The notes under the pieces are model-generated. The model saw only the letters and a list, made by a program, of their open reading frames with translations, was not told where the DNA came from and made no database searches. Below are positions 348-39,282 of a DNA stretch of 39,449 nt, in pieces; position 1 is the stretch's first letter; each line of letters begins with the position of its first letter. Source of the stretch: Heterotrichella gracilis (lineage: Eukaryota > Sar > Xanthophyceae > Tribonematales > Xanthonemataceae); assembly GCA_032358255.1 (NCBI GenBank), contig JAULBX010027252.1, positions 1 through 39,449 on the forward strand. Direction: 5' to 3'. A program made the translations under genes and the position numbers.

Positions 348-2480
348 CTCCAAACCCTTCATCTTGCCTTCCGACATCAGCTGCGGGGGCAGGGGCACAG
401 GATCAGCGCATACAGACAGATCTGGTTCCAGGGTACGATGTGACACTGTGCGATCAAGAGCTCGTTCAGCTCTTAGCTCTAAGTGGTTAGTTGTATGAAA
501 ATGCATTCCAGCAATAGAGCCAGATTGGCAGTCAGCTTTAAGGCCCTGATTGCGCACGCAGTGCCAAGCACTTTGGTCCTGATAATGTTGGCATCATTAA
601 GGACTAGGTTAAATGTCCACCTTTACTCCACCTGTCCCCCATGACTGCCATGCAATTGTTTTGTCATGACACAATTTGTTTCTCTTGTTGAACGCATCCG
701 AAGGGGCATAGCTGGTGCTTGGGTGCAAATAGCAAAATCCCTCGGAGTGGGTGCAGTGGGCACCTACCCCACGCCAACACACCCTCCGCCCAACTCCCCA
801 CCACCACCACCACCCGCCACCCACCTGCAGCCCAATCCAGCTGATCCCCTGGCAATGGTCCAGCACTATCCCTCGGAGGTGGAGGCAGTGTGCGCCTACC
901 CCACCCAGCAGCGAATCGTCTACCTGCCAGAGCATAGGGTTAAGAGTTTAGGGTTGATGGCATGTCATGTGCACAGGGGACCTTGAAGCTTGGCAATTAA
1001 ATAATGAATGATTGTCAGTGAGACAAGCCAAGTCCAGGTCGTCTCAAGGTGGCAAGGACGACAGCTGATCTGGATGTGTGATCGCATGGAATTGGAAATC
1101 GGATGCGGAACAGTGTTGTACCAGGGCAGCAACACCATCCCCCCCTCCCCTGGGGTCAAAACGGCCATCGGCAGTTGACAGCATTGGGCATACTGTAGAC
1201 CCCTCTCACCTGCCAGTGCATGCCCCCCGGGTGTCGATGGGTGAGGCAGCGGGTCAGCAGGCAAACCAGACATGAAAAGGGCGACAACCATACTATGACC
1301 AGTTCTTAATAAGGCCATTAGGGCCAGAAACTCTAGGTGAATTAATGGATTGTGTGTTTCCAAGTGAACGTGGTGGGTACACACCCCTCTTACCCCCCAG
1401 GTGTAGATGGCTGAGGGAGCGGCAGCGGGTCAGCAAGCCAACTAGACACCAAAGAGGCTACCTTCAGGCTATGACCAGTTTGATTAAGGCTAGAAATGTT
1501 TTAGGGTTTAGGTGGTATCGATGGAATGAAGGGAAAAGCGGTGGGTACATGTAGACACCCCTCTCACCTGCCAGTGCAAGCCCCCAAGGTGCAGGTGGGT
1601 GAGGGAGAGGCAGCGGGTCAGCAGGCGAGCCAGCCCACTTCGCTGAAGCTTCTGCTTGGTTTCAGAGTGCGCGTGGCGCAGGGAGGCAGGGGTGATGGCT
1701 AGGGTTTCCAGCTGGCGCAGGACCTGGGGGAGAGGGTTTAGGGTTAAGAAGAGGGTGCAGGGTTTGGTTTCAGAGTACGCGTGGCGCAGGGAGGCGGGGT
1801 GATGGCTAGGGTTTCCAGCTCTCGCAGGACCTGGGTGGAAGGGTTTATGGTTTGGAGGAGGGTTTGGGCGGAGGTGATGGTTTAGGGTTGGCACAGGTCC
1901 TGGGGTGTTTTGGGGTGATGGTTTAGTGTTTGGGACTTGAGGAGGAGGGTTTTCCTTGGAGGTTTTGAGCGGAAGGTAACGGGGGTAATAGCGAGGGTTT
2001 ACAGCTACGATGACGTCGCAACAAATATCCTACTAGGAGGGTGTTGTGACACGAGACCCTGCTTAAAACCCTAGGGGCAGAGCATTGTGACGCCATGCTG
2101 GTTTGATTCACACAGCTTGAACAGTGTCAAAACAGGGTTTTTACCCTTTATATAGGATGTGAAAGCCGTGGCATGTGCCACATCCATGCATATAGGGCCA
2201 GTTTGCACATGGCACAAAAAACCTCCGCACAGCGCTTCACTGCAATATTCCCCGTCATGTAGCTTCACATCCGTCACCATGCACCCATCTCCAGCCTACA
2301 AGCCATCCAGTTCACCTGCTCCGCAACGTCGCGAAAGGTGGTGCACACGCATGCTCCCCGGCACAGCTCGAGCGGATTGGACGAGGCAGCTCGACACAAG
2401 ATGTCGCGTAGGATGTCTGGTGGCAGGTGCGTGATGTTTAGCTCTTGCTGCTGTTCCTCCTCGGCCACGTGGCTGTCCAT
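348..2480 (-). CDS. F-box/LRR protein, 5' part (gene continues left)
   Basis: Four phase-compatible exons are proposed on the minus strand: 2316-2480, 1568-1723, 825-923 and, less surely, 348-380. The first starts at the ATG at 2480 and encodes 55 residues with an F-box-like core (LPPDILRDILCRAA, then CVCTTFRDVAE). The second (52 residues) is leucine-rich, with the LRR-type phrases LRQLETLAI and LTHLHLGG. The third reads GAHCLHLRGIVLDHC. Each has AG before it and GT after it, and all junctions are phase 0. F-box proteins normally recruit substrates to SCF (Skp1-cullin-F-box) ubiquitin ligases through the F-box, with LRRs binding substrate; that role is inferred here. The C-terminal LRRs are probably beyond the left edge. 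The second exon has degenerate copies on both sides. The F-box and LRR exon 2 are well supported; the last two exons are tentative. Confidence 0.62.
1196..1836 (-). repeat. Decayed copies of LRR exon ends
   Basis: The 3' part of LRR exon 1568-1723 (encoding LLTRCLSLTHLHLGG plus its donor) recurs downstream at about 1380-1445 and again at about 1196-1268, with small deletions. The intron sequence following them is duplicated too: about 1267-1320 resembles 1447-1505. The 5' part of the same exon (LETLAITPASLRHA) recurs upstream at about 1757-1836 with one base lost, which breaks its frame. The copies are on the same strand as the gene. Confidence 0.8.
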
Positions 2481-3681
2481 GGTGAGGGGGTTACGGTGTC
2501 GTCAAGACGCTCGTCAGGAGGCCAAACTTCGCAATTGGACCAGGCAGGCCACAATGGAATACAGTAGGGAAGGTTTTTATCAGGTGCACCCTAGATAACA
2601 CGCGTGCAAGTGGTGCCTTCTGCTGTCGAGGTTGAGTGTGTGCTGTTTTTGGGGGTCAACACGCAGGGCCTGGCTACCCTAAAAAACCCTATATAGACCC
2701 TTACCCTATAAAGCCTACCATGATAGATGTAGGCAACGGCCCCAGGGACGACAAACCCCTACTGATACGACCGGTTGTGCTCCACATGGCAGTGCGCTTG
2801 TTTTACGTGGGGCCCTTTGAACACACTATTGGCGGTAGCCATGAGCCGATGGACCGTGGCAATATATCGCCCACACACCAGCGGCTGTTGCCTATAGGAA
2901 CAGTATACAAACTGCCAGTGGCAGACAACGTACAGATTCCATAGCATGTCCCTGCGCCTTACAGGGGTGTAGATGTATATTGTGCATACCCCTCCTAGTA
3001 GCCTGCAGTACTGAATACTGGGCGCCGTGGGTATTTGAGTTGCACGCCACGCACAAAAGGCATGCCGTTCCAGGTGCCCTCTCGACCAGCACAGTGGATA
3101 AGGAAACCATCATGCAGCCCACTACCTAGACCTAAACTACTGAAAAAAGGACAAGGAGATTTTGGCACACCAGCTGCCTGTACATTGTCAAAAAAACTAC
3201 GACTAAAACCTGCACACAAGCCGCAAAATGGGGGGCAAACAAATGAATTCTTGGCACGGCAGGCCCCATGCACAGCGCAGCCCAGTCGGGACATCATTTA
3301 GGGTTTACTTCAGGGTTGACAGCGCAGAGCAGCCATCAAGGGTTAGGGTTCAAGCTCAAGCTACGCCAAAAGATCTAGGGTTCAGCGTTTCACCCTACAC
3401 AGAGAGTGGGGCCACCCTCGCAATTGTCTTTACCCCTCCATACTTCAACCAACTGCTACTCCTCCTCCTCCTTCAAAAATCAGCAACACCCTAAATGGCA
3501 CCCAAAAACCCGAAAAGCCCCTTAATTTGCCGTCTTTGTCCACCCGACCATAGCTGCTCCTCCCTCCCCACCACGCCCACTGGTTCTCCTCCCCCTCCTT
3601 ACCTCACCCCATGCAGCAGCCAGAACAGCCCACTTTCTGGTCCCCTTAAAAGTAAAGATCGCCCCTCCCCCTCTCCCCTGT
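2481..3681. other. Intergenic region between two minus-strand genes
   Basis: This stretch lies upstream of the F-box gene start at 2480 and downstream of the RING gene stop at 3682. It should hold the promoter of the former and the 3' UTR of the latter. The ORFs in it are short and resemble no family I recognise. TTACA at 2959-2963 is TGTAA on the minus strand and could be a poly(A) signal for the RING gene, but it is a single five-base match. Confidence 0.4.
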
Positions 3682-6600
3682 TCACCCGATGTAGCTCAGC
3701 CTCCCTTGGTGCCCCGGCCCGGTCACATCCATCACGTGCGCCACCCCCACCGGCCCTGATGCCACCTCCACCACCACCGGCACCCCCCCCTGGATGGCGG
3801 CGTAACTCGCATCCCCGGGGTGCTGCTGGGGGACCAGGAAATTCACCACATTCCCGGAAAATTCCGCCTGGGGGCCCCGGGGGGCCACTTGGGGCACCCA
3901 GGATGCACCCCGGCTGTGCAACCCCGAGGGCTGGGCGTAGGGAGATGCGGATGAATAGGCGGCGGACGTGGGGGAATACGACGCAGGGGGACCCTGGTCG
4001 AGGTCGGCATAGTAGGGGGAGGTGGGGGAGTAGGATGGGGGGGGCGTTGGTCGAGATCCGCGTAGTAGGGGGAGGTGGGTGAGTACCACGTGGGTGTGGG
4101 GGCCAGTGAGGCGGACGCTTGCACCAGGATGTGGGTAGGGTTTGCGCCTGCGGCGTTAGGGTTTCCGTCGCGGGCTGCGTAGCCCTCGTCGCCCCGGAAA
4201 TAGGCCCCCGCCCCGAAATTCTGGCTGTGGTACCCCCCCGATTGCTGCTGCATTTGGGCCAGCTGGCCATCCAAAATCTGCCCCGTGGAAGGGTGGCGCT
4301 GGAGGGGGGTGGGGTAGGGATAGACACCACCGGCGGTGGGGTTCGCCACCCCCCACTCGTTCGAATCCCCACCCCCACCCCCGCCAGGGGGGAGGTAATA
4401 CTGCTGTTGCTCCCTGGGCGCGGGGACCCTCCCACTGGTAGATGGGGATGGGGATGGGGATGACAGCTGGCTGAAAAACTCGTTGAGGAAGGTGCGGTAA
4501 TCTGTACCACTACCCCCTTGTTGCTGCCCCCCCTCGGGGGCGGAGGGCCTATTCGACCCCTGCCCCCCTTGCGCCATTTGGGCCCCCCCACTTGCGTAGT
4601 GGCTGTAGGCGAGCGTGGTGGACCCTTGGGGGTCGTGGGCGGTGGCGGCGGTGGTGGCGGTGGGGCGGTGGTGGGTGGTGGTGTGGGTGCGGGGGCGGTG
4701 GGGTTGCACACTGATGATGCGCCGCCTCTCCACCAGCATCTGGAAGGAGTGGCCCAAGGGGAGGTGGATGGAGGCGGAGGTTGTGCGGCCCTGCGGGGGG
4801 TGGGGTTGGTTGGAAGAATGGGAAACGAGCTTCCGGGAACACAGTAACGAGCAGCAGTGGGGTGTGTAGAGTAGGGTTTAGGGTTTCTGATGCGTAGGGT
4901 TTAGGGTTTGTGGCGTGCGGCAGCATTTGGAAGGAGTGGCCCAAGGGGAGGTGGATGGAGGCGGAGGTGGTACGGCCCTGCAGGATGTCCTTTGAAATTT
5001 GAAATTGAACCATGGCGTTGCCGGAAACAAAAGATCAGCATTTGGAAAGAGTGGCTCAAGGGGAGGTGGATGGAGACGGAGGTGGTGCGGCCCTGGGGGG
5101 TGGGGGGTGGGGGTTAGGAGGATGCGTCAGTACAGTGACATGGCATTTCCTGAAACTGCATGATATACAGCGTTATATAATGGAGGTAACCTTTCTGCAC
5201 ATTACATTGACTCCCCTGCCATAATACTCCTACTGGCGCAGGGCTGTATTCAACCATTTCATTTTTATTCCACCCACCTGCATCGACACCACCTGTGCCC
5301 CCCTTGCCAGGCCGCTGCCAGGTGTCGCCATGTGAGTGGACCGCTCGTAGGTGGTGGAGGGGGAGGTGGCGGCCACCGGTGGGTGGTGGTGGTGCTGGTG
5401 GTGGTGCTGGTGGTGGGTGAAGTGGGGAAGCAGATCGGTGGTGTCCATGTGGTGTGTGCCCCATGTGGGGGGGCCGGGGGCCTGCAGGATTTGGGGTCTA
5501 GGGTAAAGGAACATGTGCAGGGATTGGGGATGTGACTGGCATGCATGTGTGTGGGGAGTGTGTGTGTGGGGGATGTGTGGGGTGTGTGGGTGGGGAAGGG
5601 ATGGGGTGGGGGCAATGATGGTGTGGTTGTGGTGGTGATGGTGGGGTAGAGGAGCCGAATGACCAGGTTGCACTATCCCGCGCACAAAAGAATGCATGAC
5701 GCATGCCCAAAAAAAACAACCCAAACCCCTTAACACTATCAAAACCCTAGCAAAAACCCTAACCTGCTCCACGATGCCCTGCAGCGCTCGGCGGATGCGC
5801 CCCACCATGCCGAAACCCTCCCAAACCCTACCCATCCCCTAACCCAAACCCTACCAAAGCCCCTTACCTGCTCCATGGTGTCCTGCAGCGCCCTGCTTAC
5901 CCGCCCCACCATATCCTGCAGCTGGCCCTTGTTCACTACAAACCCTACAAAACCCTAACCAAACCCTGACCAAAACACAGCCAAAGACCCTTACCTGCTG
6001 CAGCCACCTGGCACTACTAACATTACCCTATTAGAACCCTAGCGAGAGCCCCGTATAAGTAAGGTGTAAGGTATACCTGCCCCATGGTGTCCTGCAGCGC
6101 CCTGCTTATGCGCCCCACCATGTCCTGCAGCTGGCCCTGGTCAACCCCCCCTGCAGGGTTTAGGGCTTCATCAAAGAGGTCGTGCTGCATGCCGGTGTCG
6201 GCATAGGGGTGGTGGGCCAGCAGGGGGGCGGCGCGCTGGCCTGCGGGGGAGGAAGGGGCGGGTGGGTGGGTGGGTGGGTAGTGGTGTGTGCAACAGATGT
6301 AGAGCCGATGGCGCATGTGCTTGCCGGGTTGTGTGCCAAGCAACCCCTTCCTATTTGCACCCTATAAAAGCACCCCTCAGCCTCATGCACCTGAACCCCT
6401 TCCCACACAACCCTCCGCTGCCAGCCACCCACCACCATACCGCCACTACCTCCCCACCCACCACCTGTTAGCGTGTCCTACATGCAGCACCATTATTCCT
6501 TCCCCCTTACTTGCCCAGCCACATATCCACCATGCGCAGCTGCCACCACCGCCACCCACCACACACCTGTCTGCATGCTATACATGCGCCATGCCCCGCC

Positions 6601-8068
6601 CAATGCAACCAGCCACCACCACCGCCTCCCACCACACACCTGTTTGCATGCTATACACGCACCCCCACCATCCACCCACCGCCCATCTGTATACATGCTG
6701 CACATGCAACCTTACCACCCACCCTCCACCCCCCACCTGTCTGCGTACTGTACATGCACCACGCCCCTCCCGAGGCCACCAGCTGCTGCCACGCCTGCGC
6801 ACGCTGGCTGAAGGCGGGGGTGCGGGAGGCGTCGTGCGCATCTGCAGCCTCCTTCAGGTTGCGCACAGGCACTGGCTGGGACCACACCTCCTGCCTGCGG
6901 GTGGGGATTGGGGGTGAGGGTGGGTGGATGGGATGTGGGAAATTGGGGAGTGGGGTATCTTGTGGTCATTATTGTGCACAGGAACTGGCTGGGTAGTGGC
7001 GTTGCGGGGTGCCTGCAGGGTTTTAGGGTTTGCTGTCTAGAGTATGATTTTAGGGTTTCCAGCCTTCATGTTGGGCATGTGGAGCGGTTTTTCAGCCATC
7101 CGTCCAGGCAGGGTTTCCACCCAGGTTTAGGGTTTCGCAGCCCAGGGTTATAGGGTTCTAAAGTTGTCCTACCTGCAAATGGGACATTTGGAGTGGTCCT
7201 TGAGCCAGGCATCCAGGCATGGCGCAGAAGCAGTGGGAGCAAGAGGGGGGTCATGTGCGCCTCAAGCAGTAGCTTAAAGAGGTACCACTCCAGGGTTTTA
7301 GGGTTTGCAGACCAGGATTTAGGGTTTTCAGGGTTTTCCTACCTGCAAATCGGGCACTTGGAGTGGTCCTTGAGCCAGGCATCCTGGCAAGGCGCGCAGA
7401 AGCAGTGGGAGCAAGAGGGGGTCATGTGCGCCTCGAGCAACAGCTCAAAGCATATGGGGCACTTGAGCCAATCGAGTACCAACCCAGGGTTTTAGGGTTT
7501 GCAGACCAGGGTTTAGGGTTTGTAGGGCTTCCCTACCTGCAAATCGGGCATTTGGAGTGGTCCTTGAGCCAGGCATCCAGACACGGTGCGCAGAAGCAGT
7601 GGGAGCAAGAGGGGGTCATGTGCGCCTCTAGCAACAGCTCAAAGCATATGGGGCACTTGAGCCAATCGGGGGCATCGGGCTCAGGGGAGGTGGAGGTGGA
7701 GGTGGAGGTGGATGGGGAGGAAGGGGGGGGCGCATCGCCGCACATGGTGGCCAGGTTTGGTGTGGCCTGCGGGGCGGAGGGCGGGAGGGTGGGTGGCGGT
7801 GGGTGGTGGGGGTGGTGCAGGGGGGATGGGGGAGGGTGTACGAGGGGTTTTGGTGTGGGTGACACAGTGCTAGATGGGTGGGTGTGCAGGTGTGGGTGTG
7901 GGTGGAGGGTCGGTGGCTGTTGGTGGCTGTGGCGGTACCCACTTACACTTTTGTGCCTGCGGGCCGTGTAGGTGGCTGTATCGTATGGCAACCCTTGTGC
8001 AGCCAGCTTGCCATGCAAGCGTACCAAACACTCCCTTTGAAGGAGCAACGTGCAGTAGCTTTCAGCTG
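3682..8068 (-). CDS. RING-finger protein, probable E3 ubiquitin ligase
   Basis: Six phase-compatible exons on the minus strand: 7947-8068, 7537-7766, 6737-6894, 6077-6240, 5278-5481 and 3682-4790. The 5' end is unresolved because the first listed exon starts mid-codon. Exon 7537-7766 encodes a C3HC4 RING: CPIC, 12 residues, CSHCFCAPC, 10 residues, CPIC. It splices in phase 2 to give CPICRQEVWSQPVPVRNL, a typical RING exit. RING domains bind E2 enzymes and promote ubiquitin transfer; substrate and location are unknown. Downstream come a helical exon (QLQDMVGRISRALQDTM), a His-rich exon (HHQHHHQHHHH) and a long Gly/Gln/Ser/Pro-rich terminal exon. The terminal exon has two copies of YSPTSPYYADLDQ and a hydrophobic end near VVNFLVPQQHPGDASYAA. 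That exon is one base short of a multiple of three: its frame changes between the two YSPTSP copies, at the eight-G run at about 4037-4044. About 660 residues if the shift is an error. Confidence 0.68.
4912..5096 (-). repeat. Two upstream copies of terminal RING-gene exon start
   Basis: The 5' end of exon 3682-4790, encoding TTSASIHLPLGHSFQML, is present twice more upstream in the preceding intron, at about 4920-4983 and about 5037-5096. Each copy follows an AG acceptor-like context. They diverge from the exon just after the shared segment. TTTAGGG-like motifs lie between the first copy and the exon (about 4872-4910). Confidence 0.85.
5758..5935 (-). repeat. Two downstream copies of the QLQDMVGR exon end
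   Basis: The 3' end of exon 6077-6240 (encoding QLQDMVGRISRALQDTMGQ plus its GT donor) recurs at about 5872-5935 (DMVGRVSRALQDTMEQ) and about 5758-5815 (MVGRIRRALQGIVEQ). Both retain open frame and a GT at the equivalent donor. Degenerate AACCCT motifs fill the gaps. In principle they could act as alternative donors or exons. Confidence 0.85.
6156..6168 (-). repeat. Telomere-like motif inside a coding exon
   Basis: A TTTAGGG-type motif (CCCTAAACCC on the coding strand) lies within RING-gene exon 6077-6240. There it encodes the residues A-L-N-P of DEALNPAGG. Most other such motifs in the window are intronic or intergenic. Confidence 0.7.
6455..6736 (-). repeat. Minisatellite from a repeated exon 3' end
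   Basis: The donor-proximal end of exon 6737-6894 (minus-strand sense TGCATGTACAGTACGCAGACAG then GT, given here as key features CATGTA, GCA and GACAG|GT) is echoed at about 6690, 6640, 6565 and 6455. Spacing is roughly 50-100 bp. The copies keep the CATGTA/CATGCA core and usually a GT after the final CAG. They are separated by C- and A-rich DNA. Confidence 0.72.
7072..7474 (-). repeat. Tandem decayed copies of the RING exon 3' part
   Basis: The C-terminal part of RING exon 7537-7766, including the GT donor, is repeated downstream. Copy 2 at about 7343-7474 keeps the whole C3HC4 pattern in frame, but with no clear AG acceptor just upstream. Copy 3 at about 7173-7280 has indels that break the frame. 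Copy 4 at about 7072-7117 keeps only the DAWLKDHSKCP portion, degenerate. Each is preceded or followed by CCCTAAA-like motifs, with a period near 190 bp. Confidence 0.9.
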
Positions 8069-10197: not shown

Positions 10198-13100
10198 ATG
10201 CTGCCAGGCAAGGAGCCAGTACATGGCGAGCCAAGTGCTCGGCACTTCCTGTGGCTCGGGGCAGCACTACAGCCAGCCCAGCACCTGGGGCAGAGCCTCC
10301 AAAAGCGCATCCCTTTTCCGATGAAGCACCCGCTGCCTCCCAAGCTGGGCCTGCGACCCAACCTGCATCGGCGCCCCCACTTCAACCCAGGCAACCCAGC
10401 GGAGCACCTCAGGTCTGTGCAGCTGTGGCTCCAGGGCCTGCGCCAGATAGAGCCCCCCAACCTCCAGAAGCTGTCAACCGTGGTGGCCAGCGCGCTGGTG
10501 GGGCATGTGACAGGTATGAGCGGGTGTACTGAAAGGGTACTTGCTCTATCCTGGATTGTGGGGTTTAGTCTGCTGCGAGGGTAGTGGGTTTGGGACAAGC
10601 AAGGGACGCCTAGGATAGGGATGCCAATCCATTGCTTTAGAGTGTTGAAGCAATGGGACCCTGACTCCGATCTGTTTGTTGAGTGTGGTGTTGGGTGTGT
10701 TCCAGCCGTAGCCTTGTCACTGATACTGCAAGGCAAATGGGGTTTGGAGCATACCTGGTAGCTGCTGGGCGCTGCTGGGTGCTCTGTTACACTGTCGTTG
10801 TTTGGCCCCCGCCTGACCAACTTCATCCCTATTGCAGCCGTGGCGGTGACGTTGCAACACGAGAATCTCCACCTTGACGGTTTGCTGGACCTCAAACCCC
10901 AAACCCTAAACCCTTTACTTCGCCTGACCACCCTTTTCCGCTGCCACAGCCATGGCGGTGACGCTGCAACACAAGAAGTGCAACCTGGAGGGCGCGCTGG
11001 ACCTCAAAACCCTAGACCCCAAACCCTACACTCCACCTGGCCAGTTTTACAGTTCGTGCCGAGTGCCTTTCTTTACATAATACAAATACTTCCCTTTTGC
11101 AGCCATGGCGGTGACTTTGCAACACAAGAAGCGCAACCTGGAGGGTGCGCTGGATGAGGGCAGGCGGGGGTTCAACCTCAAGCTGCGGGTGCCCTGGAAG
11201 CGGATGCGCACCAGGGGCGAGGGCAAGCAGGTGCACCACCTCAACAGGTGGGTGCTCAGACTTAATGTTGCGTGTCTTCAAGTCAGTCATTGGTATTGAG
11301 TCAGTTGGTGGTATGCCCGACAGCCAGGCAAGGGGAGACGTTCTTGCAGTCGCCAGGGAGCCCCTGTCCTGGCACTGCTTAAGGGTTTAGGGTTTGCAAT
11401 TTAGGGTGAAGTGGAAGCGAATATGCACCAGGGGCGAGGGGAAGCAGGTGCACCCCAACATGTGGGTTCAGATTTCACACAGCGCCCATCGCAGGCGCTA
11501 CCAGACTGTTGCGTAGCTGTAGCTGCATACGTTTGCGAGTTCATTTAGCTGTATGGGTTACAGCCAGCAGTGCAAGGTACTTGGGGGTGAAGCGATGCGC
11601 ACCAGGGGCGAGGGCAAGCAGGTGCACCTCAACAGGTGGGTTTGCACTGCCAATTACACAGCGTCTCATTACCATTGCACGGCCTTGCGAAGGGCCCTCA
11701 TACACACCGTGGCTTGGCTTTTGTCAGTCGTTTGGGGCTATGCATGACAGCAAGGCCAGGGTGTTCTTCCTGCCTTGCGCCAGCCAGCCCCCTGTAGTGG
11801 CACTGCTGTAGGGTTTAGGGTTTGGTTGAAGGTGCTGTGGAAGCAAGGCCGCACACGGGGGCAAGGGGAGGTAGGTGGTTGCACGCGGCGCCCTTTGCAC
11901 ACTGATGGGCAGCAGTTGGTGTGTAGGGTTTGTAGGGTTTGGACAATATGCATAGCATTCCTTTTCGTCGATCCCCCCCAGGAAGAACAGAGAAAAATGT
12001 CAACACCATTAACGGCTGGGGAACAGCTCAAGGTCATAATTGTAGGGTGTTCGGGACTCACCGACTCCACTTTCACACCCTTGAGACGCCCTTATATACA
12101 CACACACATGCACACCACGCTACGCCTCTCAAATCCCTTCTGCACACCCACCACCACCCACACACCACCCACCCCCTGCAGGCACCAGCGTGAGCAGCGT
12201 GCGCGGCACCTGAGCGAGGAGGGGTGGCGGCTGCAGGGGCTGAACGACGTGCACGCGGCACTGGCATGCTTCCAGGTGAGGCTCGTAGACCAACGTGGTG
12301 GATGAGGGTGCCTATTGGGGTGTCTTCAACCATGCACTGCGCCTCGGAATAAGACAGCGGCAGGTTGGTGATGCACAACCGGCGTAGTACAGTCGAGGCA
12401 TTGCTAACGCCTTAAACCTCCTCTTGTCCGTTTATAACATTGCATTGTTTCCCCTTTCAGGAGGCGCACGATCTGGTCCCCGGGGATTCGCAATACCTGT
12501 CCCTGCTCGCCAAGCAGTGGTCCGACATCAGCTTCCTGCCTGAGACGCCCAACCAGCGCAAGGTGGAGGTCAACTACAAGGCAATTGAGATCAGCCAAAA
12601 GGTGCGCATGATAATACAAATGTAATAGGATTAAGAAAAGATTTATATATAACAATAAATGAGGCGCCCAACCAGCGCGAGGTGGAGGTGAACTACAAGG
12701 CCATTGAGATCAGCCAGAAGGTGCGCAGATAAATACCAAAATTGAATAGGATTTCTGGCCTGGGAATATTGGTGTGGTGGCCATTTAGATCAGCAGGCGC
12801 TTGACCTCTACCAGCAGGATGCCCTGGCGCAAGTCAACACTACATCTGATAGCATAATAAACCCTGCCCCCCCCCTCTCTGCATGCCCTTGACTTGAATT
12901 AGCAGGGCGTCCTAACGCATTCAAACTCTAAAGCTTGTAAAACTTTAAACCCTAAATCGTACAAAACCCTAAACCCCCCGTCCTTTGCAGGCTGTCGACC
13001 TGAACCAGCAGGACGTCCTGGCGCACATTGGTCTGTGCGTGAGCAAGGGGCGCATCGCTATGTTCCACCCCAACAACAGGATAAAGGTGGAGATGGCAAA

Positions 13101-14354
13101 GGCGGCCAGGGAGGACGCGCACAACGCACTGGAGGTGAGCCGAGTTGCAATTTCCAATGTAGGGTTTTGGGTCTGCCACACATATGAATATGCTCGTGTG
13201 CATGTTCGGCACAACCCCCACCCCTCAACCCCCACCCCACCCCACCCACGACCTTGCGCACCACGTGGCGGGGTGCTGGCACTACGAGATGGCCCAAATT
13301 ACATGCTGATCGCGCTTCATTAAGGCCATGTTCAGCAGAAACCTCATTCAACACCCACCACCGCACCCTCACCCCACCCGCCCACCGCACCCCCACCCCC
13401 CACACCTCACCCGCCAATCCCTTGGCGCACCAGTCAACCACTCCTAACAGAAATTTCCTCCCCTTTCCCCCAGGTGGACCCCAGTAACGACCTTGCGCAC
13501 CACGTGGCGGGGCGCTGGCACTATGAGATGGCGCAGATCAACATGCTCATCCGCGCACTCATCAAGGTCATGTTTGGGACCGCGCTCAGCCCCGGGACCT
13601 ACTCCGACGCGCTGGCGTGCTACCGCAAGGCGGTGGACATCAACCCTACGAGGGTGATGCACCACATCGAGATGGGGCGGGTGATGAGCAAGATGGGCAT
13701 GCGGGATGAGGCGCTGCGGCAGCTGGAGGTGCGCAGACAGGAGGAGGAATTTCTGGTGGAAACTCTAGCTGACCCTCTTTTAACGCCAACAAAGCCGAGT
13801 AACGTGAACCTCGCATACTAGCCAATGAATCCCTAGCCCTGATGATATATACCCACTTCCCCCCTCTCAGGTTGCCATGACACCCTGACATGCCTGGGCA
13901 GTACATCAATCAAAACATGAGAGCTCGTTACCCTCGAGTCCTATCCCCTGACATGATCATCCTCCCCTTCAGGTGGCTATGACGCTCGACCCGGAGGACA
14001 TCAACGGCCACCTCGTGCAGGAGGGTGCAAGGCTGCTGCAGCAACCCTAACCCATCAAACTTCAACCCTGCAACCACTGGTTGTACACCTCAAAACCCTT
14101 GGGCAGTTCACTAGGAAAATGGCATCCAAACCCTGTCCCCTGACATGTGGATCCCCCTCCTTCAGGTTGCCATGACCCTCGATCCTGAGGACATCAACAG
14201 CCACCTCATGAAGGAGGATGCGCGGCTGCTGATGGCAGACCTCCAGCGGCGCCCCACATGGCCCCTGCTGCTCACCCACCACCCGTTGGAGGGGGCGGTG
14301 GTGGGGGGTGGGGAGGGGGGCCAAGGGGGGCTGCCGCCACCGGTGCCTGCGTGA
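10198..14354 (+). CDS. RMD-family TPR-like protein (regulator of microtubule dynamics type)
   Basis: Seven exons with matching phases: 10198-10513, 11103-11247, 12182-12275, 12461-12601, 12991-13134, 13474-13728 and 14166-14354. They total 1284 nt, or 427 residues plus TGA. The ATG at 10198 is in the context CCACGATG. Residues about 186-400 match the TPR-like fold of RMD (FAM82/RMDN) proteins: AVDLNQQDVLAHIGLC, a helix ending ALEVDPSNDLAHHVAG, WHYEMAQINMLIRALIKVMFG, TYSDALACYRKAVDINP, then EALRQLEVAMTLDPEDINSH. The N-terminal ~150 residues are basic and Pro/Leu-rich and contain RGEGKQVHHLNR. Animal relatives associate with microtubules or tether ER to mitochondria; plant and algal members are little studied, so the cellular role is inferred only. 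The C-terminus is Gly/Pro-rich. Nearly every exon has partial copies in adjacent introns. This is the best-supported model in the window. Confidence 0.85.
10833..11007 (+). repeat. Two upstream copies of RMD exon 2 start
   Basis: The start of exon 11103-11247 (AG then CCATGGCGGTGAC, encoding MAVTLQHKKRNLEGALD) occurs twice upstream, at about 10836-10893 and about 10950-11007, each with its AG acceptor. The nearer copy encodes AVTLQHKKCNLEGALD; the farther one is more diverged (AVTLQHENLHLDGLLD). Both are followed by CCCTAAA-type motifs and then lose similarity. Confidence 0.9.
11405..11878 (+). repeat. Three downstream copies of RMD exon 2 end
   Basis: The end of exon 11103-11247, encoding RTRGEGKQVHHLNR with its GTGGGT donor, recurs at about 11405-11466, about 11588-11640 and about 11826-11878. 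The middle copy is closest, retaining GEGKQVHLNR and the donor. TTTAGGG motifs lie just before the first and third copies. The segments between them also share phrases, for example around 11320-11370 and 11740-11790, so larger units were duplicated. Confidence 0.88.
12660..12920 (+). repeat. Copies of RMD exon 4 end and exon 5 start
   Basis: Positions 12660-12727 repeat the end of exon 12461-12601 (encoding PNQREVEVNYKAIEISQK plus GTGCGC) almost exactly. About 12798-12832 and about 12886-12920 are two degenerate copies of the start of exon 12991-13134 (the DLNQQDVLAH coding segment). The intron therefore contains both a downstream donor copy and upstream acceptor copies. Confidence 0.87.
13240..13345 (+). 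repeat. Upstream copy of RMD exon 6 start
   Basis: About 13248-13340 repeats the segment of exon 13474-13728 that encodes DLAHHVAGRWHYEMAQ and the following residues. Base deletions break its frame. It sits in the intron between exons 5 and 6. Confidence 0.88.
13868..14047 (+). repeat. Two upstream copies of RMD last exon start
   Basis: About 13972-14047 repeats the start of exon 14166-14354 (AG, then the segment for VAMTLDPEDINSHL), here reading VAMTLDPEDINGHLVQEG, and ends in a CCCTAAC motif that would supply a stop. A shorter copy at about 13868-13900 keeps only the AG and the first bases. Use of the 13972 acceptor would yield a shorter C-terminus. Confidence 0.87.
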
Positions 14355-25766: not shown

Positions 25767-25838
25767 CAGTTGTGCCACTAGTTCTTACAAACAAACACAT
25801 AGAAAGGCAGGCTGCGCATTCCCAGGCAGCATTTAGCC

Positions 25839-25859
25839 GATGATCATAATATGATCATC
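25839..25859. repeat. 21-nt palindrome
   Basis: GATGATCATA and TATGATCATC are perfect inverted copies around a single central A. The palindrome lies within the tail of dispersed repeat copy 2. Confidence 0.85.
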
Positions 25860-26154: not shown

Positions 26155-26577
26155 CTATTCTCCACCAAGAATCATCATCCAACGCCACGTTGCTGTGTTC
26201 ACCAGCTGCCACTCGCCATTCACCTCAACCTTGCCCGCCCCCACCAGGATGCACCCCGCAGAGTCCCTGTAGGTATTTCCTGCATGGATGAGAATGTCTG
26301 ATCTCCCGGGGACATCAATGAGCGGGAGCCTTTTCCCAAACCTCGGGCTTTTCCTCATGGTCACTGGGAAGGAGCCGATTTGGATGGCGTGCTGGGAGCT
26401 CTCCAAGGTGTAGCACAGGAAGTTGCCGTTGTGGAATAGCTCCCCCACGATGCTGTGGATACCTGTACCCGTGCGGCGGATCTCCAGGTCCATGGTCCCT
26501 TGCGCAGATGATCTTGCAAATTGCGCCGCAGCACTTGGTAACTGCAACCCAGAACAACACACTGTGTTGGAATCCAT
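26155..26577 (-). CDS. DUF5675-domain protein (candidate horizontal transfer)
   Basis: An uninterrupted 140-residue ORF with ATG at 26577 and stop at 26155. Residues about 29-128 match the DUF5675 family, mostly known from bacteria and phages: GELFHNGNFLCYTLE, then IQIGSFPVTMRKSPRFGKRLPLIDVPG, then ILIHAGNTYRDSAGCILVG (strings here shown by their key blocks). The conserved His98 and Cys109, spaced H-x10-C in an IHxGN...GCI context, recall the His/Cys arrangement of L,D-transpeptidases, although DUF5675 has no assigned function. The first 28 residues are an extension; Met29 could be the true start. It is the only single-exon gene in the window with a recognised family. It has no exon-end copies or telomere-like motifs around it, which suggests a recent origin. 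Confidence 0.72.
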   Translation of the reverse strand: MDSNTVCCSGLQLPSAAAQFARSSAQGTMDLEIRRTGTGIHSIVGELFHNGNFLCYTLESSQHAIQIGSFPVTMRKSPRFGKRLPLIDVPGRSDILIHAGNTYRDSAGCILVGAGKVEVNGEWQLVNTATWRWMMILGGE

Positions 26578-27299
26578 TTTTTTGTTATTATATTACATAC
26601 AGAAATTAGGGGTATAGCACAGGAATGTCCGTTTGTGCAACTGCAACCACTGAGAGACGGCCAAAGGCGCAGATAACAACCTGCAAAAACGTTCTACAGC
26701 CAACTCCCCTCATTATGGTTCCAAACCAGGCTGGGCATTGACCAGTATTACTGGGCAATGCCCAAATACTATACCCTTAATCTAGGCTTTCAGGGAGGGA
26801 CTGGATCGTGCATTGTACAAAGTTTGGTGCCTGCGGGAGCAGCCTGCCAGCAGTGGATACCATTTTATGGTGCTCGTAGAGGCTGGCAGATGAGGGTGGA
26901 GGCCAAATGGCGAACCAAGACTTGGGGCTGCACTCCCCCAATAACTGCCCTCCTAACTAGGGCTATACATGACTGCAAAGCTGCTATGCCGCCCGACTTC
27001 TGCAATATGCTATCATCGCAGTATACATGAGCTCGTGTCGCATCAGAAATAGCTGCTATTAGCATGGCTTCTATGCCGCCTTTGACAACAGCCAATAAAT
27101 TGTAAATTTTAAATTTCTTTGACACGCATGCCTCACATCCATATTGGGTCCTACGCACAACCTACATGTCACTGGCTACGCTAACTATGCAAAAAGAATC
27201 ATGGCCTACTTATGTATACATACATGGACCCATGCGCAATGCAAGCCAGGAGGTGTCCTGCCTAACTACCTCTAATCTACAGGCTGAAAACAATGAATT
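26578..27299. other. Region without recognised genes
   Basis: This is upstream of the minus-strand DUF5675 gene. ORFs up to 97 codons occur on both strands but none is recognisable. No repeats were seen. Confidence 0.35.
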
Positions 27300-27432
27300 G
27301 AATTGTTCAGCAAGTAAGACACAAACAAACAAACAAAAGGCGTTCCAAGCCGTCATCGGCTTATTGCCCTGTGTGCCCCTGAAGGGCACACATTTGGGAC
27401 TCAAAGTCCACAATGTCATGAAAAGTATAGTG
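27300..27432 (+). repeat. Dispersed repeat tail, copy 3 (partial)
   Basis: An ACAAACAAACAAA tract is followed by a segment (GTGTGCCCCTGAAGG, GGGACTCAAAGTCCACAATGTCATGA, key blocks only) that resembles the tail of copy 2 at 25785-25950. The GCAAGTAAGACACA segment at about 27310 also recurs at about 28398. Only the distal part of the family is present. Confidence 0.55.
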
Positions 27433-27460
27433 AGTAAAAAAGTCTCGCATACTGGAGACA

Positions 27461-28835: not shown

Positions 28836-31800
28836 TCATGGCGTCTCGGCACCCTTGAGAGGCAGCCCCACCCACCCCTCCTCTGCCATGACCCTCAGCT
28901 TGGCACCCATGTCCTCCAGATCACAGTGCAGCTGCCAGTCCCCCACCACCTGCTGCTGCAGCTGGGGGCAGGGCACGAAGGAGTGCACCCACGCCCACCT
29001 GCATGTGGATTGAAAAAATTATTTATGATGAAGTAATGGAATATTAACACAAAGGAATGCAGTCGTGCATGCAATGGAAATGAAAGGAAAGGAGTGTCAC
29101 CTGCCACACCCAGTGATAGCTGAGCCATTGACCATGTGACTCGTCACTGATAAGGTGTGCACCCACCCACCCACCCACCACACCACACCACCATCCACAC
29201 CACACCACCCACACCTGTTCCCCTCGGCTCCCATGTCAGCAGTGACAGTACACACACGCGGCGGGCAGCTGTGCAGGTGCTCCCACAGCCATGCAGCAAC
29301 GGGTGGCGCTTCGCGCTCCCAGAAGGCTGCCATCGCGTCAGCAAGCTGCGCATCATCCTCACAAGATTTTTCGTTGGTGAAGCGCATGTGGATGTTGTCC
29401 TCGCCCACCTGGACCCAGTCAAAACAAAGAACGAGTAGAGGATTGTTTGAGGTGCCAGAGGGATCTAGGGTTTAGAGTTCAGCGGTTGGAATGGTAACGA
29501 TCACTCTGCGTTAGACTTAGGGGTTGAGTTTGTTGTTCTGCCCTCGAAGATCTGTCCTGGCCTCAGCAAGTTGCCCATCATCCTCACAAGATGTTTCGTT
29601 GGTGAAGAGCATGTAGATGTTGCCCTCGCCCACTGGGACATTCAGAGCTGGATGCGCTTTAGGTTTAGGTTTGCATTTAGGGACTAATTGTCTAAGGTCT
29701 TCTCCCATTTATGGGCCAAGCAAGAGCTGGATGCTTCCAGTTGAAATACAACGGTTTATTGGCCCACAGACCTCTCTCAATCAACTGGTCTCATTGCGGA
29801 ATTAAGGTGAGGGTTTGGGTTTGGGTTAGGGTTTACATCTGAGAATGCAGGGTATATCCCTACCTGGCCACAGTCTGCGCTGGATGAGTCTGTGACAGGG
29901 CCCTGCCCATCCAGTGGCCCAGCAGCGGCACCCTCCAGCAAACCCTGCACATTGAAATTACAACCGTACTGATGACAGCAGATTCCTGCACAAATATAAT
30001 CACAATGCAGCAAATAAAGCAACCCTATTCAGGTATTATGAGTCATATACTAGTATCTGAGTCTTACCTCGAAGTCAGAGAAGCTCAGGAGTCCTCTCAC
30101 GGCTCCGTCTGTGTCCAAAACATTTGCCCCACCACCAGCCTCTGCAGCCCTAAAAAAGCCCTAAACCCTAGACTTTTCACACCTGGTGCATGGGGCCCCC
30201 GCTCGAGCCGCTGGAGCTGCGCATGTCTCCCCCTTTGCAAAGCAGGAAGCCCATGGCTCTCATTGTGCAGTTGGCATGGTCATCTCAATCACTGACACCT
30301 CTACAAGTATAATCTTCACAAGGACATTACCGGTACTCTCCTGCTAGGTTGTATTATTCATTGTGTTTTCTACCTGGTGCATGGGGGCCCCGCCCGAGCC
30401 GCTGGAGCTGCGCCTGTGGCCCCCTCGGCACACGCCCACATGCCCTAATGCAGTGTCCACGCAGAAATCCAGGGGCTCCCTCATGGTCCCCTCTGAATCA
30501 AAGTGTGCCACCACCAGCCTCTGCAGCCTTGTCAGGGTGGTGATGGAGCCAAACTTGCACACATACTCCCTGGGCCTGGAATTAAAAGGGAGGAAAATAG
30601 CACGTGAGTAAGGCCAAAATGGATAGTAATGAAGGGTAAATGAGCAAAAGAAGACTAGGAAGTGCGCCATCGCCAGCCTCTGCAGCCTTGTCAGGGTGGT
30701 GATGGCGCCAAACATGCACATGTACTCCCTGGGCCTGGAATAAATAGGGAGGAAAAGAGAAAAAATATATATATAAATAAAGCGTAAATGGGAATTTATT
30801 GATGCAAAATCATTTGGGCCCACACAACAGCGCATGATGTGCCCTACCATTACCTGTCATACCCCACCACCAGCTCTGTCAGACTGACCAGGTCAGGGGC
30901 AAACACATGCAGCGTGGGCTCCACCACCCAGCCGGGGTTCGGCGCCTGAAACCCTTCTAGGTCATTCACGATGGCGGTGAGGGTTCGGAGGTTGCTGAGG
31001 CGCGCCACTGGCTCCGGCACGATATCCAAGATGTGGGCGTGCCCGTCATACTCCTCCAGGGAATTTGCCCAATACTGCAATTCAGTGAGACAGAAATTTA
31101 GTAACTTTTGGAATTTCAATGTCCCTTACTATTAGAGAGCATCGATATTGCAATCCTGTCTCCTACCATATCCCTTACCATGAGTGCGGTGAGGCCAGTG
31201 AGGGCGTTGAGACTGCGCATGGACTCTGCTTGTGCCCCCCTGCCAGAATCACCGATCCCCCTGCCAGTATAAGGCACTTGCCCCACTGTCCAACTCGTAC
31301 CTCAATATTATACAGCATCCACCACCTGTGTTCTACTCCCCCACTATTCCCCATCTGTGCATCATGTTCCTTACCATGAGTGCGGTGAGGGAGCTGAGGG
31401 CGGTGAGGCTGCGCATGGAGTCTGCTTCCCTCTCCCAGGTCACCACCCCGCGCAGCGCCAGGTGGGCAAGGTTGGGGAGCAAAGAGGGGAGGTCGGCCAC
31501 CACGGGGAGGGCCACGCCGCTTATCTCTGTGCCCTGCGCCAGGATGTTTGATTTGAAAGACAATTGTTGGTAATCCATTGGCAGTCGTAGTTGATCACCG
31601 AGTTCACACCTCCAGGGTGTGTGTTGGAACACGAATTTTACCTAGCTATTTTTCCATACAGTTTTATCACCTGCATACGCAAAACTGGCTGCAACATCCC
31701 TGGACAAGGGGAGACCAGGTTGAGGCAATGATGTTAAGAAATACCACAATAAAAGTAGGAGATTTGTTACCTGCTGGCGCAGCACTCGGCTGCCCACTGT

Positions 31801-35408: not shown

Positions 35409-38400
35409 TTAGCGGCCACTGCCTGCCTGCGCATTGGCCCCCGCGTTGGCCTGAGAAATGGTGTTGCCACCTGCTGCAGCCTGGAAGCAGTTGATGAGGG
35501 CCTGTGAGCTGGCTGATGCAATGGCGCCTGCAGCTGCGCCATTGCCCTGGGCGGTGGCGAGTGCTTCAGCCTCTGCACCGCGCACAGAAAATTTGTGACA
35601 ATGGACACAATCAGCATAAGTTGTACCAGCTGCCAGACAACGGCATGTGAAATATATATTTATCATCAAATGTCGGACTCCTTAACATTACATTGTGACA
35701 ATCCAATGCGTTATGCTGCAGTTTGTTGGTGGCAACATGACCCAATTACCACAGTAGGTATGCAATCTCGGCAGTTGAGGTGCACGTTCTACTGGCGAGT
35801 CACTTCAAACAGGCTGTCATGAGGTGGGAGGCAATGTGCATCCTGGTTAGGATTTTGGAAACGAGGTCATTATCTAGGGAAAAGGCACATTGTGTCATGA
35901 CTTTGTGCCCATTCTCTTCCCCACTGCAGTACACTCACGAGCAATGACTTGGGTGACCACATCACAGCCGATGGTAAGTGTGCATCCTATTTAGGCTTTT
36001 GGAAGGAGTCATTGTCTAGGGAGATGCGGATTGTGTACTTGCATGCGATGACTTGGTGCACCCAGTGCAAGGACACCATGCACGTCATAAGATATTAATA
36101 ACACAATGGGTCCCCATTCCCTTCCACCAATGCAGCACACTCACGGGTAATGACTTGGGTGACCACATCACAGCCGATCGAGGAGGCAGCCGTGGCCAGC
36201 GCCTGACTTGCTGCCTGGGCGACAGCCCCACCCTGCAGCCGCATGCGCGTTCAAGACAAGGGGAGGATAGTCAACATGCGGCAAAGTCAAATTCAGCTCC
36301 CAAAGGAATGCTCCCTGGAGGTATGAAGTAAATCACATAAGCAGAAATGGCGCGCAGTGGCTTGCGCCAGGCAGGTGTGCATGGCTTGTGCTATTTGTGG
36401 CCCGTATTTTAAATAGGGTCGAGTAGATGCGTCACCATAGCAGCTGTAAATGACATTGGGCAACAAACTCGATATATCCTATGCCAGACAGGGGTGCATG
36501 GCATGTATGTAGTTACTATTGGTGGCTGCACAGACATTGAGCACGCAAATGCAGCTGTAGCAACGCAAGGCATCAACAACTAAATAGGTTTTAGGGGTAA
36601 AGGTTTCAAGGCTCAGAGCAGTACAATTTCCTATCTATGTACACCTCTGTTGTACCTGAGCGATGGCTGCGGCACACGCGGATATTTTTTATGTACATAA
36701 ATAATTGTACATACACCAAAAATATTAGTGATTAACTGAACAAGAAATGGAGGTATAAGGGTACCCCATGTACCTGAGCGATCGCTGCTGCATAGGCGGT
36801 GGCTGCGTCATTGATGTTGGCGGGGGCGTCCACCCCCAGTGCCTGGGTGAATGCCTGTGCGTAGGCTTGGGCTGCTGCCTGGGCATCTTTGGCCTGAGCG
36901 GCGGCCTGGGCGGATGCGGTGGCTTGGGTGAAGCCCTCTGCAGGACAGGGTGCGGGGGAGTGTCAGATTCGATCTTAAGGCAGATACTCAGCTGTCATTA
37001 TGACGCAGAGTCGATGCAAGTTGCTTGAAATAAATAAAAGAAAGTTTGGGAAGTATTTGTACGGTAAAAAGTCACATAAGGTGGCTGCCTTCTGGCGAAG
37101 GGGCAGCAGCTGGGGCTGAGGTCACATTAGGTGGCCTGCTGAGAAGCCCGCTGCATGTGGGTAGGCTACTAAGTTCTGAAAAGGGCGTTGCAAGGTTTAT
37201 GTGGGGCTTCCCCGTCTCAAATGTGTGGGCTTTAAAGGCACCAGGCAATCAGAATCAATATATGCATCCAAAGGTCGGTGCAGTTGTTGACATCAAAATC
37301 ATTCAATCAAACATGAGGGTGTTCAGGGCATAAAGACAACAATAATAATTATTTATTACGCTTATAATTATCACATATTGTTTGTGCACATTTCCTTTGT
37401 TTTGTAGAGCTGAATGTGCATCCCACTCACGTCCGAAGGTCTGTGCAAAGGCGTTGGACACGGCCTGTGCATTGGCTCCCCCCTGCGCCAGCGCATCACT
37501 CACTGCATTGGCTGCCGCCTGGCCCCCACCGGACACTGCATTGGCGATGGAGGTGGCTTGGGCGGTACCGCCACCGGTGGAGGTGGCCTGGGGACGCAGT
37601 GTAAGAAAACTAGTTTGTGAACCAATGTGGAAGTTGCAAGGGTCCCACATGTGTAAGGGCGCAGGCTTCTATTTCAATGGATACTTGAGTACATTATAGT
37701 CCTTGCATATGTTTTACTGAAAATTTCTTCAGGCTAAAGAAGAGGTAAGTTTGACAATTTACCATTAAAGTTTACAAATTGTGGCTCTGAGAACACTGTG
37801 GGCAGAGGTTGGTTGCCTTTATATTCTTTTGGTGTTGCAAAACAGCACGGTCTTATGCTTTTGAAGGCAAGCCTTGACTGGCAGGCAACATGTGTGCTAG
37901 CTGTTGCCACACGTGCAGCAAGTTTCCACGTTTTGCATGGCCTAACCGCCCTTCTTAACATTTATGTCTCGAAACAAGACATGACTCAGTCTGTTGAAGA
38001 CAGGTGCTGAGCCAATTAAAATGTACTTCTTTACATGTCGTGACAGCTAGAACACTGTATGGGTCGTGCACGCTTGCCATCAAAAGTTTCTGCAGCATTA
38101 CTCATGCTTCCTCCAGCTCGAGACATAACGTCCTAAACCCTGTATCGGCAAAGCTCATTCAATCCTTGCACAGCCATAAAGGTGGCGATCAATTGTTTTC
38201 TTGCAAAGATGAGCACAGCTGCACAACTGCAGTCCCACAAACCCTGAACCCTAGGCTAACGGCGTGAATATGGTGTGCCACAGTTGTAATGAAAGCCTAA
38301 TAGTGTGGTTGCAGTGGTTTGAATGATTCCCCACACAAGCAAAAGTAATCGAGTCTCAACTACCAGTCTGCACGTGCCGGTTTGGGGCAACCCTGCGCAA

Positions 38401-39282
38401 GGTCTACATGACTCCCCTGAACGTCAAGGCTGTTCAGAACTGCATGTCTACGTGGTGGAAAGGCCGTTTCACGGCAGCCCGGACTGTTCACCTTTGAAAG
38501 TCCGGGCTGATGTGAGACTGCCTATCCAACCATGTAGACAAGCAGTTCTGAACAGCCTTGGACGTCCAGCGGAGTCATGACCTTGCGCAGGGTTGCCCCG
38601 AGCCATCACAATTCCCAAATGGAATGGAACACTTGTTATTACCCGCTATACCCGCTCAGTACCCAGTATCACAGGGTCCTGATGCCCCAAAGGCAAGCCC
38701 AGGTACTGTAAGGACACGTGGCACAGTGACAGTATCCCGCACAGGCCCTTCAGGACCCATACAACCCTCTAGCATGATTTTGTTTTATAAAAACCATTGC
38801 AATCAATTAACGCTCCTCGTTGCAAGGTTCAGGGGTTCACAGACCCGTGGAAACCTACACGATCCACATTCCTTGATAGGCATCGATTACACAGTGTGTC
38901 ACCCCAGGGCTCCACAACCACCAAATGCATGACCCAGCAGCAACAAGTGTCCCCCATACCTTAACAACCCTAGAACAGCGCAAATGCCCCCCAAACCCTA
39001 AACCATAAGGCAGCACAAGTGCCTCTAAAACCCTAAACCCTAAACCAGCAAAAATGTAAAAAATGCCCCCAAGGCCCCCCCAAACCTGTGAGTTGGAGTT
39101 GGCAGTAGCGCTCCCACCCCCTGTTGTTGACGCTTGGGACGTCGACTGCGCGATTGCGGTGCTCTGGCCCCCCTGGGTTGGGAAGCACTTCTTGAGGGCG
39201 TCCGTTGTGGCGGTGGCTATTGCGCTTGCGCTGGCCTGGGAATTGCCTCCCTGGGATTGGGCATTGGCCAGGGCTTCGGCGG
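35409..39282 (-). CDS. Ala/Gln/Ser/Gly-rich silk-like repetitive protein, 3' part
   Basis: Five phase-compatible minus-strand exons: 39086-39282, 37431-37587, 36774-36937, 36145-36232 and 35409-35572, ending in TAA. They encode about 255 residues; the 5' end lies beyond the right edge. The sequence is dominated by A, Q, S, G, N and T, with phrases such as AQAAAQAKDAQAAAQAYAQ, NAVSDALAQGGANAQAVSN and GGQSTAIAQSTSQAS. The first and last exons share one module: AEALAxAQ, an Ala/Ser-rich helix, AL-x-x-CF, then a Gly/Gln/Thr stretch. Exon 36145-36232 has a related single-Cys motif (SSIGCDVV). Charged residues are rare. Such composition resembles silk-like or extracellular-matrix proteins, and the regularly placed cysteines could cross-link chains; both points are inference. 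No signal peptide can be checked because the N-terminus is missing. No family name is offered. Confidence 0.62.
35837..36020 (-). repeat. Downstream copies of exon 36145-36232 end and intron
   Basis: The segment for IGCDVVTQVIAR with its GTGAGT donor recurs at about 35935-35972. It is accompanied by duplicated intron sequence: TGTGCATCCT...TTTTGGAA...GTCATT.TCTAGGGA occurs at about 35839-35882 and again at about 35980-36020, and TTCC.CC..TGCAG.ACACTCACG at about 35918-35940 matches 36121-36145. Confidence 0.87.
36650..36690 (-). repeat. Downstream copy of exon 36774-36937 end
   Basis: A short remnant encodes AAAIAQ followed by a GTACAA donor-like sequence, matching the AAAIAQ/GTACAT end of exon 36774-36937. 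Confidence 0.7.
38384..38599. repeat. 216-bp near-perfect inverted repeat (long hairpin)
   Basis: Arms 38384-38485 and 38499-38599 are reverse complements along about 100 bp, with few mismatches and small bulges, around a 13-nt loop. Examples: GGGGCAACCCTGCGCAAGGT opens the left arm and its complement closes the right arm; AAGGCTGTTCAGAACTGC pairs with GCAGTTCTGAACAGCCTT; AGCCCGGACT pairs with AGTCCGGGCT at the loop. It sits in the 1.5-kb intron of the silk-like gene. It could be a MITE/foldback element or a long-hairpin small-RNA precursor of the kind known in green algae. Confidence 0.93.

Follow-up and report, generated by a model that had tools for sequence, protein, structure and literature searches.

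Exon-end copies in neighbouring introns and their association with telomere repeats in the genome of Heterotrichella gracilis

Direct repeats in introns of Daphnia pulex have been interpreted as traces left where staggered breaks were repaired and filler was inserted, and passive intron growth by this route has been proposed (Li et al. 2014, PMC4202315); the repeats measure 4–17 nt and were found in 55 of the 90 new introns and in 16.2% of 617 established ones. Among vertebrates, 824 repair-mediated duplications with an average spacing of 1.2 kb have been described in the human genome, only four of them with partial exon/intron donors, pairs within 50 bp having been excluded (Pace et al. 2009, PMC2671141). 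Interstitial telomeric sequences of mammals are inserted at double-strand breaks (PMC2246262, 2007; PMC7215372, 2020); break-site duplication is given for 10 of 155 such loci (PMC2246262), and the human intronic ones (31%) fit random insertion (PMC2246262, PMC7215372). In potato, an intron gain in an RdRp gene has been traced to tandem duplication across an intron–exon boundary, copying splice signals (Ma et al. 2016, PMC4974935). For several classes of introns, direct repeats of 4–30 nt shared by the two borders of an intron were reported by Rogers and Bendich (2025, PMC11782384). The stretch analysed in the present study, called the window, is the full 39,449-nt contig JAULBX010027252.1 of Heterotrichella gracilis (host genome of 68.5 Mb in 903 contigs), in which copies of exon ends lie in the adjacent introns; the same pattern is found in other parts of the genome.

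Copies of the acceptor and 5′ part of an exon lie upstream of it, and copies of its 3′ part and donor lie downstream. An earlier note on the window had put forward this side rule together with a count of more than twenty copies in five longer genes and a partial F-box gene, and both are borne out. A small self-trained gene finder, applied without selection, called 22 reliable exons in the window; of their 43 splice ends, 11 carry a copy, and all eight donor-side pairs have it downstream and all six acceptor-side pairs upstream. A hand-picked list of 28 window exons, those of gene B chosen by hand and the others from gene-finder output, yielded 30 pairs at 21 of 53 ends, which by our grouping belong to the F-box gene and to the five longer ones, each on its expected side (19/19 donor, 11/11 acceptor). 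The rate in this list is biased upward because the exons were chosen after the pairs had been seen; one listed acceptor (23482), which bears no pair, is not an AG. Self-comparison of the window revealed many direct and few inverted local repeats, telomere words aside, and self-BLAST gave 52 non-telomeric direct pairs with offsets below 800 nt.

The whole data set comprises 37 loci: the window, 19 usable 10-kb stretches, 11 CCT loci and six others. Twenty such stretches had been taken, in a non-random draw, from nine low-numbered contigs, one stretch (L019) consisting of N throughout; five of the 37 loci were chosen around telomere motifs and are therefore biased, contributing 7 of the 68 listed exon-end pairs. 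A local pair was defined as two repeat copies less than 800 nt apart, and pairs with a copy consisting of more than 25–30% telomere words were excluded. In this set, 179 local pairs are direct and nine inverted. The gene finder predicted 275 reliable exons with 528 ends in about 300 kb; 57 ends bear a copy (55 without two exceptions), in 19 of the 37 loci. Donor-side copies lie downstream in 43/43 pairs and acceptor-side copies upstream in 23/25, both exceptions being copies within one predicted exon each. The corresponding figures are 37/37 and 22/24 without the five telomere-centred loci, 35/35 and 17/19 outside the window, and 19/19 and 13/15 in the 10-kb stretches only, where 30/316 ends have a copy. 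In the CCT/HSP60 genes the exons were set by exon-by-exon matches to Pfam PF00118, blind to duplications; splice solutions were obtained for 32 introns, some poorly scored, and three adjacent exon pairs gave none. Five donor and three acceptor ends of these genes have copies, on the predicted side in 6/6 and 3/3 pairs. At another locus (L030, C180:5368-6876), the Cpn60 match is a single uninterrupted frame of 546 aa, unlike the intron-rich CCT genes, and may be organellar, bacterial or intronless.

Exon-end duplication clearly exists and extends beyond the window; its absence elsewhere, which the earlier note had named as decisive against the idea, was not encountered. The comparison with shuffled sequence that had been proposed points the same way: the twenty 10-kb stretches contained 59 direct and four inverted pairs under earlier settings, and one dinucleotide shuffle per stretch gave none. 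The density noted earlier is supported as well, with a correction: under later settings the 39 kb of the window hold 58 pairs and the 190 kb of 10-kb stretches 79, which makes the window about 3.5 times denser, and 5 of the 19 usable stretches contain no pair.

Gene B is the only gene in which the spliced product could be checked; its copies sit within introns and its protein is collinear with relatives. In the alignment with Parachlorella kessleri (302 aligned columns, 43% identity) no gap falls on the junctions of residues 232, 280 and 365, all next to copies, which supports the choice of exons and the omission of the copies. Another junction, at residue 154, adjoins a gap of eight residues against Parachlorella and no gap against protein P0002. 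The other named relatives are a 'Chrzof1' protein (37%), which we take to be from Chromochloris, and proteins of Scenedesmus (41%) and Raphidocelis (43%). Judged by these relatives and by the TTTAGGG telomere repeat, the genome is that of a green alga.

The copies are 20–100 nt long in 163 of the 179 direct pairs (5–95%: 25–110 nt), and the pair offset has a median of 152 nt (5–95%: 71–359 nt; 1–99%: 56–430 nt). Direct repeats and inserted filler inside introns, and the proposed lengthening of introns, are shared with Daphnia. The repeats there are of 4–17 nt, a size below the detection of our pair search, whereas here they are mostly of 20–100 nt and span exon ends; exon-end copies or telomere filler are not named in the part of the Daphnia report considered. 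With the repair-mediated duplications of vertebrates there are in common short local duplications, fillers, a close donor and acceptor and, in few cases, partial exon/intron donors, and the separation by less than 5 kb with filler that characterises them is also found here; in contrast, one pair per few kb, spacing mostly below 400 nt and almost exclusively direct orientation characterise the present copies. Short internal telomere tracts, with duplication as one outcome, are likewise seen at mammalian interstitial telomeric sequences, where duplication is a minority outcome, whereas here the tracts adjoin splice sites and accompany duplications. The repeats of Rogers and Bendich also lie near splice sites and were taken as insertion footprints, but they are not exon-end copies in an adjacent intron. 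As in the potato gene, the duplications cross intron–exon boundaries and copy splice signals. The earlier note had also pointed to intron gain by tandem duplication. Donor copies keep GT in 40/43 cases; the copies fall within existing introns, as seen in gene B, and no case of a newly gained intron emerged.

The explanation that we hold to be fairly probable is a widespread process in which error-prone repair of staggered breaks leaves direct, mostly spaced duplications behind, with telomere filler, and splicing filters them. A staggered DNA break would be repaired with fill-in and added sequence, giving a spaced direct duplication in which the organism's own TTTAGGG would often remain as filler, presumably supplied by telomerase. 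Splicing would act as the filter, a duplication being tolerated when its insertion point falls in an intron; among survivors spanning an exon end, either the 3′ part and donor would be copied downstream or the acceptor and 5′ part upstream. Because the insertion point must lie in the intron, the side rule would need no extra mechanism. Each event would lengthen the intron and add decoy splice sites, splicing presumably continuing at the original ones, and the presence of young copies suggests that the process is still active. The almost exclusively direct orientation, the short distance and the unique and telomeric filler fit such a repair, in which the break, the enzyme and the order of steps are inferred. 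Both fillers searched genome-wide occur once, each at its own place; there is therefore no mobile family behind them, and an introner or mobile-element origin was rejected for these two.

The TTTAGGG tracts match the telomere repeat of the organism itself: perfect (TTTAGGG)8 is present at 11 contigs, and at six of these it has chromosome-end orientation and lies no more than 200 nt from the contig start. In about 300 kb, TTTAGGG/CCCTAAA occurs 227 times, with only three occurrences in 55 kb of exons, and a set of 14 telomere words is found 849 times in the 19 stretches, compared with 181 for the reversed words. Within 0–40 nt after donors, 15 TTTAGGG and 18 CCCTAAA were counted, at +40–80 only two and none; upstream of acceptors, the words are mainly CCCTAAA. 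Per 10-kb stretch, the numbers of telomere words and duplications are correlated (Spearman 0.78, p=1e-4). Loci L010, L012, L015, L017 and L026 have 3–22 words and 0–1 pairs; L013, L016, L023 and L027 have 50–108 words and 7–12 pairs. Among 207 introns, 35 have a duplication and words, 14 a duplication only, 50 words only and 108 neither (odds ratio (OR) 5.4, p=1e-6), and the median lengths of these classes are 502, 429, 327.5 and 264 nt, respectively. Duplication-bearing introns are longer, in agreement with the intron growth that the earlier note had considered. With one event counted per exon end, 12/19 acceptor-side copies have C-strand words in the 25 nt beyond the exon-side break, compared with 12/245 control acceptors (p=5e-10). 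On the donor side, only C words at the right edge differ from the controls (5/36 vs 6/226, p=0.009). A mirror-image polarity of telomerase, with the G-strand always running into the copy, was dropped: 13 C and no G at acceptors fit it, 9 G and 7 C at donors do not.

Several observations weigh against this break-repair explanation. It is based on a single strain of one genome and on stretches that were not drawn at random, and, except in the CCT genes and gene B, the exons are gene-finder predictions. Locus L022 lacks pairs in spite of its 45 telomere words. Longer introns offer more room for both features, and matching for length (200–600 nt) reduces the OR from 5.4 to 4.0 (p=8e-4). In the main test, donor-side fillers did not differ significantly from control donors (G words 9/36 vs 29/226, p=0.07; C words 7/36 vs 25/226, p=0.17), telomere words being nearly as common at donor sides of exons without copies. 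For the telomere-like motifs, whose role as scars the earlier note had inferred, a statistical link with the duplications is supported; at the junction it is strong on the acceptor side and not significant on the donor side in this test. G runs after donors and branch-point-like CTAAA before acceptors can serve splicing. Selection for splicing, not breaks, could keep the telomeric words; it predicts part of their placement, but not the link with duplications.

Ordinary tandem duplication, by slippage or unequal exchange, would have random ends and make the telomere repeats irrelevant, the truncated look of the copies resulting from divergence of their intron parts and conservation of the exon. 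Tandem duplication was also the premise of the earlier note; most copies, however, are spaced by filler: the gap exceeds 5 nt in 168/179 pairs and is 5 nt or less in just 11, with a median of 91 nt (54 nt in the 10-kb stretches with looser alignment). Flush or overlapping arrays do exist at L001, at L025 x7184 and at 21728–21930 of the window (period 106). In favour of this view, 26/43 donor and 11/23 acceptor pairs show, under gap-tolerant anchored extension, homology in the intron that exceeds the 95% null, and among the nine exon-end pairs of at least 96.7% identity it is present in four (L001 twice, L027 and the acceptor of L002). The other five do not reach that level; in the cleanest of them, L035 (98% identity to +4), L043 x4796 (100% over 21 nt, to +3) and L025 x8513 (100% over 35 nt, to +7), homology ceases 3 to 7 nt into the intron. 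These clean ends and the acceptor-side telomere junctions argue against ordinary tandem duplication, which we regard as unlikely.

Similarly improbable is a break or insertion targeted at splice sites (AG/GT or YAG), for example through transcription- or spliceosome-linked lesions, with exon ends preferentially copied. The 179 pairs touch an exon end in 68 cases, otherwise overlap an exon in 27 and do neither in 84; exon-end pairs comprise, at the median, 48.5 nt of exon and 8.5 nt of intron, and the placement of young pairs (at least 93% identity, n=23) departs from uniform (p=4.5e-6). This exon-weighted placement is overstated because gap-tolerant extension finds further intron homology: strict alignment clipped the edges early, and 37/66 pairs reach into the intron. 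In addition, intron-only pairs are expected to decay about twice as fast and hence to be under-detected. The view that copies end exactly at splice sites, to which strict alignment had pointed (most within 10 nt), was accordingly dropped; it is kept for the clean young cases only. In an annotation-free test with AGGT and acceptor-like words, AGGT was commoner near copy edges, up to about 11 nt away, with a diffuse signal that was not used. The peak of telomere words at +0–40 after donors would also fit targeting, as would the genome-wide neighbourhood of CAGGTG, where GGGTTTAGGG is found within 28 nt 945 times after and 381 times before the motif (backward controls 0–5 per strand). CAGGTG is, however, a mere donor proxy that also matches acceptors followed by GTG, and exons, and CCCTAAACCC is less one-sided (731 after, 642 before). 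In a related and equally doubtful scheme, breaks would occur preferentially at exon–intron borders, telomerase would extend the end and the adjacent exon end would be copied. If this were true, many introns would consist partly of telomere repeats and recopied exon ends, and about one in 9–10 exon ends would have a decoy, maybe used or policed by nonsense-mediated decay.

Retention of the decoy exon ends for a function, as alternative or recursive splice sites or by titration of the spliceosome, is quite unlikely. The splice dinucleotide is retained as GT in 40/43 donor and as AG in 22/23 acceptor copies, where 36.0 and 18.6 would be expected under neutrality (p about 0.06 and 0.05), and donor copies score like the original donors (medians 5.67 for both). 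Donor-side offsets divisible by 3 are scarce (6/43, p=0.004; 5/36, p=0.008, with one per end), a scarcity not seen at other strong GT sites (95/272). If real, this bias suggests occasional use of decoy donors; it is a lead only, several tests having been made. Against a function, the effects are weak and spread across several tests, acceptor copies score below their originals (5.9 vs 7.1, p=0.07) and have no offset bias (7/23), and the intervening segment would hold a stop in 40/43 donor cases. Mismatches between original and copy fall on codon positions 1, 2 and 3 in 72/993, 59/997 and 161/1003 cases (7.3, 5.9 and 16.1%); the original has therefore been under selection since the duplication, and sequencing or assembly error would not give rise to the excess at position 3. 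This excess is 2.4-fold, where by our reasoning at most about 2 is expected for a neutral copy, and partial constraint on the copies or a higher third-position mutability may lie behind the difference. An assembly artefact, with alleles or paralogues joined serially, might be suspected from the 903 contigs and the few pairs of 98–100% identity, but it is very improbable in view of the spread of identities (74–95% in the 10-kb stretches, 5–95 percentiles), the copies in 19 loci, the strict side rule and the concentration of mismatches at third codon positions (p=1e-15), unlike sequencing error.

The individual copies in the window are as follows, with identity and alignment length in brackets. 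On the minus strand, the F-box gene exon 1568–1723 has its acceptor and 5′ part (original 1656–1756) copied upstream at 1764–1863 (89%, 101 nt) and its 3′ part and donor (original 1550–1633) downstream at 1194–1269 (81%, 84 nt). The acceptor and 5′ part of exon 4592–4790 (original 4734–4797) recur at 4921–4984 (94%, 64 nt), where the coding strand reads AAACCCTAAACCC 11 nt beyond the exon-side break, and a second upstream copy lies at 5036–5111 (88%, 76 nt). For exon 6077–6240, the 3′ part and donor (original 6074–6141) are copied downstream at 5865–5932 (93%, 68 nt) and again at 5762–5809 (83%, 48 nt). A donor-end copy of exon 6737–6894 is located at 6556–6613 (81%, 58 nt), and an array of downstream donor-end copies of a RING-finger exon (end at 7537) occupies 7016–7474 (73–86%).

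On the plus strand, exon 11103–11247 of gene B is flanked by two upstream copies of its acceptor end, at 10818–10889 (acceptor and 5′ part; 81%, 72 nt) and at 10947–11001 (93%, 55 nt; CCTCAAAACCCTAGACCCCAAACCC after the exon-side break), and by two downstream copies of its donor end, at 11404–11475 (81%, 77 nt) and 11589–11641 (93%, 57 nt). Donor-end copies were also found for exon 12461–12601 at 12660–12753 (88%, 95 nt) and exon 23915–24199 at 24408–24491 (94%, 84 nt), and acceptor-end copies for exon 12991–13134 at 12793–12831 (82%, 39 nt) and exon 14166–14354 at 13940–14038 (83%, 100 nt). The 5′ part of exon 13474–13728 is copied at 13239–13332 (85%, 97 nt), the alignment starting inside the exon at 13478. 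Exon 21602–21775 has an acceptor-end copy at 21441–21552 (78%, 128 nt) and four serial downstream copies of its donor end at 21834–22236, with TTTAGGG-like tracts between them.

The remaining copies are on the minus strand. Exon 29215–29408 has an acceptor-end copy at 29552–29639 (86%, 88 nt). Exon 30374–30575 has one of each kind, a donor-end copy at 30181–30234 (91%, 54 nt; alignment 2 nt into the intron) and an acceptor-end copy at 30660–30759 (90%, 100 nt); the filler on its donor side, 30235–30371, occurs a single time in the genome. Donor-end copies belong further to exon 31375–31533 at 31167–31231 (86%, 65 nt), exon 36145–36232 at 35905–35972 (90%, 69 nt) and exon 36774–36937 at 36651–36681 (87%, 31 nt).

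Other repeats are also present in the window. At 20448–21029, three direct repeats with a spacing of about 190 nt have open frames that look like coding repeats, and may be duplications of a whole unit, not of exon ends. Nested inverted-repeat arms at 38374–38609, of 31 nt (87% complementary) and 32 nt (94% complementary) around a 72-nt centre, resemble a small foldback or MITE-like element, and a 35-nt inverted repeat (91% complementary) is formed by 18–52 and 501–535, about 450 nt apart. An open frame at 26158–26592 on the minus strand encodes a DUF5675 domain (Pfam E=1e-21).

The component phenomena are known already, and their combination is apparently unreported: a search of titles and abstract openings, with bioRxiv preprints outside its scope and few subscription journals covered, brought up, among the papers listed, none that describes copied exon ends together with telomere filler. 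The finding bears on the origin of intron sequence and on the length of green-algal introns. Original and copy still lie side by side at about one tenth of the exon ends sampled; should this be typical, it would extrapolate to thousands of such copies genome-wide. The rate of intron growth, its ends, its filler and its consequence for splicing could in that case be measured directly. The copies also provide a natural test of how the spliceosome chooses between two near-identical splice sites, and they would tie telomere repeats to repair in the introns of an alga.

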